32,050 bases of DNA from Candidatus Peribacteraceae bacterium (lineage in GTDB: Bacteria > Patescibacteriota > Gracilibacteria > Peribacterales > Peribacteraceae): positions 1 through 32,050 of the forward strand of contig JAQTSK010000016.1 of the NCBI GenBank assembly GCA_028711345.1, read 5' to 3'. Of this stretch, positions 1,773 to 30,193 are shown one piece after another (positions within the stretch are counted from its first letter, which is position 1; each line of letters begins with the position of its first letter). Made by a program: the position numbers and the translations under genes. The notes beneath the pieces are model-generated. The model saw only the letters and a program-made list of their open reading frames with translations. It was not told the DNA's origin and did not search any database.

Positions 1773-1848
1773 TTCCGCAGCCGGGACGCAGCGTCCCGGG
1801 ATCGGCGCCTTCCGCCGCCATCTGCGACGCGGCGTCGCAGCTGCGGAA
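1773..1848. repeat. 76-bp nested palindrome with cloverleaf geometry
   Basis: An 8-bp perfect outer stem (ttccgcag 1773-1780 with ctgcggaa 1841-1848) encloses three hairpins. These are ccgggacgc-a-gcgtcccgg (1781-1799), cggcg-ccttc-cgccg (1803-1817) and ctgcgacgc-g-gcgtcgcag (1822-1840). It fills the queA-to-membrane-protein spacer. A degraded relative lies at 24390-24446, so this is probably a dispersed element. It could act as a terminator only weakly, since no T-run follows. Confidence 0.85.
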
Positions 1849-1928
1849 ATCATAGGAGATTGTTGAATTTCATATCAGTTAGGTTGGTTGCCTTGGTTTC
1901 CCCACATCACCCAGTACAATTCCCGACA

Positions 1929-4037
1929 ATGACGTCTGTGTCCGCCCTCAATTTCTGCCTCTTGTCAGGTTTCCTGCTCCTTGGAAGCGTCATGCTCGCA
2001 GTCCGCTTGCTACCGGAGGCACGGGCTTCCTTCCTCGGTCTCCTGACATACGGCGGCTTCACGTTCCTCTGTCTCATCATCGGCATACAGACGATCCTGG
2101 GATGGATGGGAATCCTGACCGGAACGTGGGTGACCGTGACGGGATACGGACTCGGCGCCGTGATGATCGCACTGTCCGCCCGATCATTCAAAGCCCACTG
2201 TCCGCTGCCAAAGAAACCGCACCCTGCACTGCTTCTCTTGATCCCTCTGGGAATCCTTCTCTTGATCGAGCTCTATAACGGACTCATCTTCCCCGTCTGG
2301 GAGTACGACAGCATTTCGTACCATCTTCCCATGGTCAGGCAGTGGTTCCTGAGCGGAAGCCTGCGTCAGGCGTACTTTTCGGTTTTCGCCGGACCCGTCG
2401 GCTACTACCCAAGTACGGGAGAACTCCTGACACTCTGGCCGATGCTGCTGACCAAGTCCGATGCATTCGCGAACATCCAGAATATTCTGCTCCTGCCGCT
2501 CGGTGCTGCGGCTCTGCTGCAATGGACGAGACGGAACGGCATTCCGGATCGCACGGGAATCCTCTGCCCCCTCCTGTGCCTCACTTCCCCCATCGTTCTG
2601 AAGGAACTCGGCGCACCGCATGTAGATTTTTTCTTCATGCTCACGTTCATTTTCGCGCTCCTGTTCCTGACCGATTTCGTGCGGAATGGCACTGTCCGCT
2701 CGTGGCTCCTGACTTGTCTGGCACTCGGCCTGTTCCTCGGAACAAAATATCTCGCCGTTCCCGTTGGAATCCCGCTGCTCGCAATCACGATTGTGCAGGT
2801 TGTTCGCCGCTTGAAATACTGGAAAGGAATCCGTCTCGGAGCGATCACCGGAGGCGTCGTTGCATTCATGCTCATGGGCGGACACTGGTACCTCCGGAAT
2901 ATGCTGCTAACAGGTAATCCCCTTTTTCCGGCATCTCTCAGCATCGGATCGTTCACGATACTCCATGGCTACGGATCGATGTCGGACACGATGTTCTCGG
3001 TGTCCCTCCTCTCCAAGCTTCCGTCCATGAGCCTTGGCGTCATTCCTCCCCTGACAACATTATTCGTGTGGAGGATGGGATATCAGATTCTGCTGATGCT
3101 GCTGGCGACATTCCTGATCATTCCAATGCTCTGCCGCGAATGCCTTCAACCGGGAAGACGAATGCTATTTCGATATGACACATGGATACTTGCTATCCTT
3201 CCCGTTTTGATCGTTCTCTATCTGGCGGCGCCGAATACGTACCTGCACTTCGATGCGAACATCCGGTACGCCATCCTCCTGCTGCCGGTCGGAGGGTATC
3301 TGACTGCAGAGCTTGCAAACCGTTCACGTCCCTTGGCTGCAATTCTGACAATCGGCAGCATCCTCATCATCAGCATAACTCTCGTCAAAACTCTACGTGC
3401 TCCGGATCTGCCGCATGAAACAGGAACGCTCAGACTCATTCAGGAATCTTTGCCGGTCTTCCTGCCCTTCGCTCTGCGATTCATCACTCTTGCAATCGTA
3501 TGCGGATTGCTGACGTGGACTCGCTGGAAACGACAATGGAGGATCGGCCTGCTCATTACGATGATCGCACTCCTTCCATCGACGTTGCTCCTGCCGACCG
3601 GGGCGATGTCTGCGATGCGTCAGGAACAGACATTTCCTTCGCTTCATGAGAAATACTCCTTCCTCTCACCACTGCTCCGCGGATTCGAATGGATTGCACG
3701 GGAAACTAAGACCGATGATCGGATCGCCTACGCCGGTTTCCACTTCCGCTACCCGCTCATGCATCCCCTCGATCGGACGGTCGAGTACGTTCCCGTGAAT
3801 GATTGCCTACACTGCAACTACGTCGATTTCCGCGATGAACCCGAGGGGATCTATGCCCGCGCATCGAAGGAGCAATGGATCAGGAATCTTCGTACAGCTG
3901 AAATCTCCTATCTCATCTTGCACAATGAATCGGGATTCCTAAGCTACGAACCGGGTTGGGCAGAATCAATGCCTGAGGTATTTGAGCCTGTTTTCAGAGA
4001 AGAAGGAGTGGAAGTATTCAAAGTGATAATGAAGTGA
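1929..4037 (+). CDS. Polytopic membrane protein, GT-C glycosyltransferase-like
   Basis: A protein of about 702 residues with roughly a dozen hydrophobic segments. A conserved-looking loop early in the protein reads WEYDSISYHLPMVRQW and is followed by GYYPSTGEL. This resembles the first extracytoplasmic loop of GT-C (PMT/ArnT-like) lipid-linked sugar transferases, where an acidic residue is catalytic. A hydrophilic C-terminal domain of about 110 residues follows the last membrane span. The likely role is sugar transfer to lipid or protein on the outer face of the membrane, but the substrate is unknown. The ORF is open from TTG 1860, near an AGGAG. I prefer ATG 1929 because the hydrophobic N terminus begins there. 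The product assignment is by topology and loop motif only. Confidence 0.6.
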   Translation: MTSVSALNFCLLSGFLLLGSVMLAVRLLPEARASFLGLLTYGGFTFLCLIIGIQTILGWMGILTGTWVTVTGYGLGAVMIALSARSFKAHCPLPKKPHPALLLLIPLGILLLIELYNGLIFPVWEYDSISYHLPMVRQWFLSGSLRQAYFSVFAGPVGYYPSTGELLTLWPMLLTKSDAFANIQNILLLPLGAAALLQWTRRNGIPDRTGILCPLLCLTSPIVLKELGAPHVDFFFMLTFIFALLFLTDFVRNGTVRSWLLTCLALGLFLGTKYLAVPVGIPLLAITIVQVVRRLKYWKGIRLGAITGGVVAFMLMGGHWYLRNMLLTGNPLFPASLSIGSFTILHGYGSMSDTMFSVSLLSKLPSMSLGVIPPLTTLFVWRMGYQILLMLLATFLIIPMLCRECLQPGRRMLFRYDTWILAILPVLIVLYLAAPNTYLHFDANIRYAILLLPVGGYLTAELANRSRPLAAILTIGSILIISITLVKTLRAPDLPHETGTLRLIQESLPVFLPFALRFITLAIVCGLLTWTRWKRQWRIGLLITMIALLPSTLLLPTGAMSAMRQEQTFPSLHEKYSFLSPLLRGFEWIARETKTDDRIAYAGFHFRYPLMHPLDRTVEYVPVNDCLHCNYVDFRDEPEGIYARASKEQWIRNLRTAEISYLILHNESGFLSYEPGWAESMPEVFEPVFREEGVEVFKVIMK

Positions 4038-4487
4038 AGAAACCGAGGAGTCCGAAGAGTCCGAGGAAACCGACGAAGTACGCTATACTTCATACATGCA
4101 CGAAAGACCATACGAGAAACTCATTGTCTGGCAGGAGTCGTACAAATTGTGTCTTTCAGTCTACAGGTTGACGATTAAATTTCCTCCACATGAGCGATTC
4201 GGACTTGTGAGCCAAATGAGAAGATCCTCCTACAGTGTTCCAATCAATATCGCCGAAGGAAACTCGAAGAAGTCAACGAAGGAGAAGGAACGATTTTTTG
4301 AAATAGCACATGCATCTTTGGAAGAATTGCACTGTGAATCTCATCTCTCGAAAGATCTTGATTATATTTTTGTCCAAGAATACGAAGCATTGGATGACCA
4401 CATTCAGCGTATCAGTTTTCTTTTAACCAAACTTCGGAGTTCGCTTGGCTGATGTTCATCGGACTCTTCGGACTCCTCGGTTTCTTC
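4036..4487. repeat. 28-bp perfect inverted repeats enclosing the four-helix-bundle gene
   Basis: The 28 bases at 4036-4063 are the exact reverse complement of 4460-4487. Each arm is built from 9-bp units (gaagaaacc, gaggagtcc, gaagagtcc and so on). The arms lie 32 bp before the start and 7 bp after the stop of the enclosed gene, so the gene plus arms forms a cassette of 452 bp. The left arm overlaps the last two bases of the upstream membrane-protein stop codon. The right arm ends 19 bp before ychF. No transposase is present. Confidence 0.85.
4096..4452 (+). CDS. Four-helix-bundle protein (bS23 / 23S rRNA intervening-sequence family)
   Basis: A 118-residue protein matching the small four-helix-bundle family first known from ORFs inside 23S rRNA intervening sequences. 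Hallmarks are YEKLIVWQESYKLCLSVYRL, FPPHERFGLVSQMRRSS, SVPINIAEGNSKKS and an ELHCESHLSKDL helix. Relatives include the Avd accessory proteins of diversity-generating retroelements, but no reverse transcriptase is here. The molecular role is unknown; nucleic-acid binding is suspected. The gene is visibly richer in A/T than queA or ychF, which suggests separate origin. It is enclosed by perfect inverted repeats (separate entry). Start ATG 4096 is the only sensible start. Confidence 0.88.
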   Translation: MHERPYEKLIVWQESYKLCLSVYRLTIKFPPHERFGLVSQMRRSSYSVPINIAEGNSKKSTKEKERFFEIAHASLEELHCESHLSKDLDYIFVQEYEALDDHIQRISFLLTKLRSSLG

Positions 4488-4506
4488 GGTTTCCTCCCTC
4501 ACTATC

Positions 4507-5601
4507 ATGTCACTCAAGATCGGAATTGTGGGCTTACCGAATGTCGGCAAATCGACGTTGTTCAATGCGCTGACAAGAAGCCACGGCGCACAGGCGGCGA
4601 ACTACCCGTTCTGCACTATCGAACCCAACGTCGGTGTGGTGGAGGTGCCGGATGAACGGCTGAAGAAACTTGCCGAAATCGTGAAGCCTGAAAAAATCGT
4701 TCCGGCCATCGTGGAGTTCGTGGATATCGCGGGATTGGTCAAAGGCGCATCCAAAGGTGAAGGACTCGGCAATGCATTCTTGAGCCACATCCGCGAAGTG
4801 GACGCCATCTGCCACGTCGTGCGCGTCTTCGAAGGATCCGAGGTCATTCACGTGGAAGCAACCATCGATCCCAAGCGCGACAGAGAGACCATCGAAGCCG
4901 AGCTCTGCATCGCGGACTTGGATAGGGTCGCAAAGAAGATCGACAAAGTGCAGGGAGGAGCGAAGACCGGCAACAAGGAATTGATGAAGGAGCTCGTCGT
5001 GCTCGAGAAGATCAATGCAGCCCTCAGAGCAGGAAAACTGGCATCCACAGTCGAGCTCGGAAAAGAGGAAATCCCATACCTCAAAGCCATGCAGCTGCTT
5101 ACGGCCAAGCGGATGATCTACGGGCTGAACACGGATGAGCAATCACTCGGAAAGGTGTCACTGCATGATGCGAAAATCAAAGCGGGCCTGACGGACAGCG
5201 ATACGGCGATCATCGTCTCGGCGAAGATCGAAGAAGAATTGATCGAACTCACGCCGGAGGAGGGCAAGAGCATGCTCAAAGAACTCGGCGTGGAATCATC
5301 GGGCTTGGACCAGCTGATCCGTGCCGCGTACGACGCACTGGGACTCCAGACGTACTTCACCGCCGGCGTGAAAGAAGTACGGGCATGGACAGTGAAGAAA
5401 GGCGCTACGGCACCGGAAGCCGCCGGCGTGATCCACACGGACTTCGAGAAAGGCTTCATCCGCGCGGAGACCATTGCCTACGCGGATTACGTCGCAAGCG
5501 GCGGAGAACATCAGGCAAAGGAAGCGGGGAAGATGCGGATCGAGGGGAAAGACTACATTGTGAAGGACGGGGATGTGATGCATTTTCGATTTAATGTATA
5601 A
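4507..5601 (+). CDS. ychF: Redox-regulated ATPase YchF (Obg family)
   Basis: YchF is a ribosome-associated P-loop ATPase of the Obg family that prefers ATP over GTP. The 364 residues are full length. The Walker A motif is GLPNVGKS at residues 9-16, the switch/G3 region reads [19 protein letters not shown], and the G4-equivalent is NTDE rather than NKxD, as expected for the ATP-binding branch. A helical coiled-coil insert follows the G domain. The C-terminal TGS-like domain is seen in [18 protein letters not shown] and ends [14 protein letters not shown], the family's typical end. The start lies directly after a pyrimidine-rich stretch with no Shine-Dalgarno. Confidence 0.96.
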
Positions 5602-27818: not shown

Positions 27819-27858
27819 GTTCTCGTAGAGACGCCCGATCGGGTGTCTCTACGAGAAC
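27819..27858. repeat. 40-bp nearly perfect palindrome
   Basis: gttctcgtagagac and gtctctacgagaac are perfect 14-bp arms around cccgatcggg, with a single mismatched pair (g/t) between arms and core. It lies in the 328-bp spacer between the surface-protein gene and fusA, in which I see no gene. The gtagagacgc...gtctctac type is, as I recall it, a common dispersed bacterial palindrome. Confidence 0.85.
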
Positions 27859-30113: not shown

Positions 30114-30193
30114 AATTGTTAAATGGTTAAATTGTTGGCAGGCAAGGAATAAGGGTGATGGAAGCAATAAAACAATTTAGCAATTTAACAATT
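30114..30193. repeat. Paired inverted low-complexity arms upstream of fusA
   Basis: The 23-bp left arm (30114-30136) and right arm (30171-30193) are inverted copies with 21 of 23 matches and enclose 34 bp. The unit (ttaaattgtt/aacaatttaa) is the same as in the proS-queA spacer. The left repeat begins about 7 bp from the fusA start codon. The remaining 100 bp to the toxin gene hold nothing I recognise. Confidence 0.8.

Follow-up and report, generated by a model that had tools for sequence, protein, structure and literature searches.

Some intervening sequences (IVSs) of bacterial 23S ribosomal RNA (rRNA) genes carry a gene for a four-helix-bundle protein of the bS23 (S23p) family. Here, we describe a bS23 gene in a different setting, in a 32,050-nucleotide (nt) stretch of a Candidatus Peribacteraceae genome (contig JAQTSK010000016.1, positions 1–32,050; the window, in full length, hereafter). 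It is enclosed by inverted arms of short tandem units and lies between two protein genes. We consider it rather likely that the cassette belongs to a dispersing repeat system of two parts, a bS23 protein and its matched inverted tandem-unit arms, as its gene-bearing form.

The IVS of Coxiella burnetii is 428 nt long with a 28-bp terminal stem, has GACAGAT heptamers before the S23p start, is excised by RNase III and has been described as selfish (PMC4990558). An IVS with an S23p open reading frame (ORF) is also on record for Leptospira (Ralph and McClelland 1993, as cited in PMC4990558). The window element follows the same plan, with its ORF within terminal inverted arms (~28 bp in the IVS), an overall size of ~430–450 nt and a stable RNA stem. 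Short tandem repeats beside the start codon and a patchy distribution are further likenesses, and the IVSs have been called selfish or possibly mobile.

Unlike the IVSs, the window cassette is placed between protein genes, and both its arms are full tandem-unit arrays with a 9-nt unit. Its host genome also has many cassettes and many gene-less hairpins of the window unit. The first-pass annotation of the window had suggested a link to the rRNA insertions, which holds in anatomy. We file the window element as a variant of the IVS plan outside rRNA.

Short tandem units are known also without any bS23 connection. TAACTGA heptamers are intergenic tandem repeats of Beggiatoaceae, cyanobacteria and Bacteroidetes, across distant phyla, for which a repeat-binding protein was suggested as a possible mobile part, with none identified and no bS23 link drawn (MacGregor 2015, PMC4679880). 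Unlike the bS23 arms, most of them form a single direct tract close to a start codon (PMC4679880). GGGAATC heptamers of Xanthomonas, in about 70 convergent inverted pairs per genome, and GGGGA(C/T)T heptamers of Nostoc are G-rich tandem units near stop codons, for which G-quadruplexes were proposed in a text without S23 or helix-bundle terms (Rehm 2015, PMC4692102). The same GGGAATC unit makes up the arms of bS23 cassettes between accB and accC.

Repetitive extragenic palindromic (REP) sequences with the REP-associated tyrosine transposase (RAYT), of the Y1 type, are a precedent for dispersed hairpins. The bS23 system resembles them in having dispersed intergenic hairpins and a gene-bearing form flanked by its palindromes. 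It differs in that the protein is a four-helix bundle and not a Y1 HUH transposase, no Y1 gene lies between the window arms, and PF01797 (Y1) is absent from relatives with 7–9 bS23 genes.

Avd of the diversity-generating retroelements (DGRs) works with a reverse transcriptase (RT), and bS23 belongs to a homologous family; the window protein matches the Avd profile NF033474 below its cut-off (E = 1.7e-7). Unlike in DGRs, the RT hits of the host genome are not beside the window cassette but on another contig, C92, near an Avd-like gene. There, the Avd-like gene (L012 of genome G000) adjoins two RT fragments in overlapping frames (hits at C92:9353-9927), together probably a DGR and perhaps a damaged one.

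The window cassette

The inverted arms at 4036–4068 and 4455–4487 are 33 nt long, 97% complementary with a single mismatch at the 30th position, and separated by a loop of 386 nt. In the inverted-repeat scan of its own genome, the pair scores 30.5. Perfect pairing extends over 29 bp (4036–4064 with 4459–4487), so the long inverted repeats of the first-pass annotation stand, while their 28 perfect base pairs become a 29-bp stretch within imperfect arms.

Each arm repeats a degenerate 9-nt unit (GARWCCGAR-like) in tandem. The units of the 5′ arm, GAAGAAACCGAGGAGTCCGAAGAGTCCGAGGAAACCGACGAA, extend on the plus strand from 4036 to 4077, and their inverted copy in the 3′ arm, on the minus strand, from 4455 to 4496. 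This tandem build, with a unit that differs per cassette, had been missed earlier.

The sole gene between the arms is the bS23 ORF (4096–4452, plus strand, 118 amino acids). It matches PF05635 over the whole domain (E = 3.7e-33, 114 bits against a cut-off of 33.8, profile positions 1–105 of 106) and TIGR02436 at 105 bits (cut-off 24). A solved relative is 2GSC with five chains. The enclosure of a bS23-like gene by inverted repeats close to its start and stop, as first noticed, is thus real, and so is its low G+C content, 41.2% where the neighbours have 54.2% and 55.4% and the arms ~53–55%.

Folded as RNA, the entire cassette is closed by a stem of ~29 bp around the ORF (z = −4.56). An Rfam search with the cassette returned nothing credible, and a known RNA family was rejected as its identity. 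Neither an RT nor template/variable repeats were found beside it.

The cassette is not inside a 23S rRNA gene. The upstream neighbour (1860–4037, plus strand) encodes a PMT_2-like membrane protein, and the 5′ arm starts within its stop codon (TGA, 4035–4037). The downstream neighbour, ychF (4507–5601, plus strand), starts 10 nt past the 3′ arm. Two housekeeping neighbours had been proposed, but the PMT_2-like gene is not one.

Arms around other bS23 genes

A single arm rule, a local inverted match score of at least 26 within 120 nt of the gene, was fixed for all sets, which comprised the own genome, 29 loci of relatives and 80 distant loci. The distant loci span Bacteroidota, Firmicutes, Proteobacteria, Acidobacteria, Planctomycetes, Spirochaetes, Chloroflexi and candidate phyla. 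Other ORFs of these loci and random 360-nt segments served as controls; arm-swapping between cassettes is confounded by the recurring units.

The arms pass the threshold for 95 of 116 bS23 genes: 10/11 in the own genome, 25/27 in the relatives and 60/78 in the distant phyla, the last set being biased to one bS23 subfamily because three paralogues of it were the query. At the same threshold, only 4 of 433 other ORFs and 9 of 1200 random segments pass. The first-pass annotation had counted family members devoid of flanking repeats as evidence against its idea; the survey found the opposite.

Among the armed genes, the unit period is 7 nt in 70, 8 nt in 12 and 9 nt in 13. The paired part of an arm has a median of 32 nt or ~4–5 heptamers. 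Other bS23 subfamilies include an AATTGAYAATGG type and a GGGACC type. A fixed family-specific terminal inverted repeat, the trait of DNA transposons and miniature inverted-repeat transposable elements, was not found in the cassettes, each having its own tandem unit.

G outnumbers C in the 5′ arm of 107 among 114 cassettes (p = 5e-25), and the gene-less hairpins show this bias in 29 of 34 cases. Since one arm is the inverted copy of the other, the polarity belongs to the element and not to the strand read.

The 1.77-Mb host genome has 11 bS23 genes, plus the one weak Avd-like gene. Inverted arms of short tandem units surround ten of the 11, and the eleventh is near a contig end; the weak Avd-like homologue has no arms. 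Each cassette uses a different unit, for example AGCTTTG, AGGTTTT, AGCGATT, GTAGTTG, AATTGAAA or TTAACAA. All 11 ORFs are lower in G+C than their flanks.

The distribution is patchy, with 0–21 bS23 genes per relative genome. Plasmid matches are cyanobacterial plus a few others, and a phage search with one bS23 query gave no match. The bS23 genes on cyanobacterial plasmids are flanked either by cas6 and cas4 or by ribonucleotide reductase genes. Of the three such cassettes examined, two have repeats on both flanks and the third has a long tract upstream only. Two plasmids of different cyanobacteria (L452 and L453) have bS23 with repeat arrays between cas6 and cas4.

Matching of protein and unit

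In five relatives with several cassettes each, arm similarity tends to be highest for the nearest protein of another genome, with a mean percentile of 0.68 versus 0.50 for the null of arms shuffled inside each genome (z = 6.6). Closer protein pairs reach an arm-similarity percentile of 0.83. The matching persists without related flanking genes (z = 6.2, 177 comparisons), so the gene and the arms are linked independently of place. The window subfamily accompanies 9-nt units of the ACCGA/ACCAA/ACAGA type in G001, G004, G031 and G034.

Two causes may underlie this link: either the gene and the arms travel jointly or the protein requires its unit. It seems that there is one bS23 gene per unit, while the hairpins of that unit multiply.

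Gene-less hairpins

The arm core GAGTCCGAAGAGTCC occurs 44 times in the host genome with at most one mismatch, versus once for the reversed control, and mostly as gene-less hairpins with short loops. More generally, inverted repeats scoring at least 15 number 39 in 354 kb of this genome versus 1 in shuffled DNA. Many of the 39 are gene-less hairpins in the style of the cassette arms. Two of this element class are in the window, neither assigned to a strand: one at 614–729, just upstream of queA, with TTAAATTGTTCAATGG... units and a 64-nt loop, and one at 30114–30193 with AATTGTTAAATGGTTAAATTGTT and a 34-nt loop.

Among tandem-arm repeats with gene-size loops, 9 of 12 contain bS23. Of the other three, one joins two separate tracts, one is a pairing of 1.4 kb and one is of low complexity. 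The candidate for a bS23-free tandem-arm pair at L075 873–1644 (704-nt loop) was rejected, as it is actually two separate repeat tracts in two genes.

Heptamer-like tracts of AGCGATC units also run in frame within coding sequence, at L075 1610–1650 (the carB N-terminus) and around window positions ~30–90. They encode peptides such as AVSDQRSAISD at the CarB start and AISDKRLAISNK in the first window ORF.

Hairpin density in relatives was measured on sampled stretches and not on whole genomes. Tandem-arm hairpins number 34 in 1,148 kb of 15 bS23-bearing relatives. The 14 bS23-free relatives have 1 in 600 kb, which is AT-rich, of low complexity and probably an artefact. The density correlates with the bS23 gene number (Spearman 0.63, p = 2.8e-4).

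The gene-less hairpins are closer to the arms of resident cassettes than to those of other genomes in 25 of 30 cases (p = 4e-6). The first-pass annotation had allowed that the same arms might turn up randomly, with no relation to the gene. They do turn up mostly without the gene, as the occurrences of the arm core exemplify, but not randomly, as they resemble the resident cassettes and the bS23-free relatives yield only the AT-rich, probably artefactual case.

Xanthomonas provides a parallel case, with bS23 and GGGACC arms between carA and carB in 4 of 35 species. These four species rank top of the 35 in GGGACCS tandem sites, with 67–105 per genome versus 0–58 (rank p about 2e-5).

The host genome has other dispersed repeats, distinct from the tandem-unit hairpins. 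A near-perfect loopless palindrome with the core GTAGAGACGC.../...GCGTCTCTAC has several genomic copies, at window 27819–27858, L075 1326–1365 and 13635–13674, and L088 10820–10859. An inverted repeat family with the core GCAGCCGGGACGC / GCGTCCCGGCTGC occurs at window 1773–1848, between queA and the PMT_2-like gene, and at L084 6005–6547. Yet another type, TGTCATCCTGAGCGGAGTCGAAGGATGA, is found at L077 14350–14421 and L086 21–89.

Re-use of gene junctions

The same gene junctions are occupied in different ways. The atpD-atpC junction of the relatives has bS23 cassettes with three different units in three, gene-less hairpins with different units in two, and is empty in many. The bS23 proteins of two same-genus cassettes there share 48% identity, against about 95% for AtpD over the compared stretch, so the two cassettes are best read as separate arrivals.

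In most Xanthomonas species, the accB-accC junction has bS23 with GGGAATC/GGGATTC arms. In four checked species without this bS23, it has a gene-less GGGACC hairpin. The surroundings of ychF have the cassette in the window and a gene-less hairpin upstream in G003; queA and ychF are adjacent in G005.

The content of the carA-carB spacer in Xanthomonas (L302–L331) varies by species: some have the bS23 cassette, others a small ORF of one of at least three further, unrelated kinds. With such varied small ORFs, it looks like an insertion hotspot.

Relatives with a clean junction in place of the cassette had been suggested as a check. No base-exact empty site, as needed for a target-site duplication, was found among the relatives and Xanthomonas species examined, be it for the window, the carA-carB or the accB-accC site.

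Proposed mechanism and alternatives

In the system as we picture it, the arms are made of degenerate 7–9-nt units, their family matched to the protein, and on either side of the loop the strand with more G has its 3′ end facing the loop. bS23 would provide the unit specificity by recognising and binding the array, either in RNA or in single-stranded DNA, a role that we infer from the unit matching and the association. One unit might be bound per subunit of a bS23 oligomer, given ~4–5 heptamers per arm and the five chains of 2GSC.

The cassettes and hairpins would be copied or moved to intergenic sites, and the gene-less hairpins would be the non-autonomous form, spread in trans to gene junctions. 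Strand transfer may be left to host replication or recombination enzymes; we propose this route in view of the lack of any known catalytic motif in bS23 and the absence of RT and the Y1 transposase from several relatives rich in bS23. The S23-bearing 23S rRNA IVS would be such a cassette after its arrival in an rRNA gene, cut out of the transcript by RNase III.

The mobile unit of the first-pass annotation gains from the anatomy, the unit matching and the hairpin association, while its movement is what we infer, no base-exact empty site having been found at the junctions examined. A bolder claim is that bS23 is the sequence-specific driver of a bacteria-wide class of mobile hairpins without a classical transposase or RT, each subfamily propagating its own 7–9-nt unit. 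We advance it tentatively and lean slightly against it.

Several observations weigh against the dispersing system. Arms fall short of the threshold in 21 of the 116 bS23 genes, and the unit matching extends only weakly to the most distant phyla (z = 1.3). Recent duplicates were not found among 54 cassettes of five genomes, where within-genome protein pairs are at most ~64% identical. No empty site was found for the window cassette, as no examined relative keeps the PMT_2-ychF order, nor a clean carA-carB junction, as the cassette-free Xanthomonas species carry other small ORFs there.

The hairpin counts have their own weak points. Comparing relatives with and without bS23 for hairpin presence is not significant (Fisher p = 0.08), only suggestive because many genomes are thinly sampled. 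Eight bS23-positive relatives, sampled at 40 kb each, have no tandem-arm inverted repeat, which makes the density comparison sparse, and the p-values are optimistic since the species are related. Xanthomonas G087 and G092 keep 58 and 25 GGGACCS sites with no detectable bS23. Finally, we know of no nuclease or transposase motif in bS23.

The last two points suit an alternative that we find rather unlikely yet the most serious, namely that the hairpins are host or selfish repeats spreading by themselves through replication slippage, template switching or recombination. bS23 would then be a passenger or a domesticated binder kept between its arms, for example for autoregulation or RNA stability. 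Template-switch mechanisms are known to lengthen tandem units and inverted arms and to keep them alike, and a single gene with many hairpins per unit also fits. However, self-spreading does not explain that the hairpin density tracks the bS23 number and is essentially nil in the bS23-free relatives, that bS23 genes are nearly always within arms or that most gene-size loops hold bS23.

Less probable still is an RNA-processing element, an intergenic stem of the RNase III type whose processing bS23 regulates, the junction positions reflecting operon regulation instead of mobility. It would agree with the RNA stem of the window cassette, with the location of sites directly behind stop codons and within operons (atpD-atpC, accB-accC and carA-carB) and with the RNase III cutting of the 23S IVS (PMC4990558). 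However, the patchiness, the different units at one junction in sister species, the low G+C of the ORFs and the many gene-less copies all call for spread.

Movement in trans by a transposase or an RT, of the IS200/IS605-RAYT or the DGR/group II type, has precedents in REP-RAYT and in Avd as an RT-dependent bS23 relative. The host genome has five Y1 hits and the RT fragment pair beside the Avd-like gene. However, neither RT nor the Y1 transposase is present in G008, G014, G039 and G053, which have 7–9 bS23 genes, and G043 with 11 has no RT. Such a mover is disfavoured and, in our judgement, highly improbable. Chance or general repetitiveness has practically nothing left to it, as intergenic DNA often contains short tandem repeats (PMC4692102, PMC4679880) but the matched controls and the shuffled DNA, with almost none, refute it.

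Implications

The dispersing system of bS23 and matched arms, to which the window element would belong, appears undescribed, and a link between bS23 and dispersed heptamer repeats or hairpins was not found in the open-licence papers searched. To our knowledge, bS23 has had no assigned function since its description in rRNA insertions decades ago, and the heptamer repeats of Xanthomonas, Nostoc and Beggiatoaceae have no agreed origin. Tying the two together gives each orphan a partner.

The driver role of bS23, if true, would account for both the S23-bearing rRNA IVSs and heptamer repeats such as those of Xanthomonas. bS23 and its arms would then form a mobile system that lacks any recognised recombinase, occurs in many phyla and sits within core operons.
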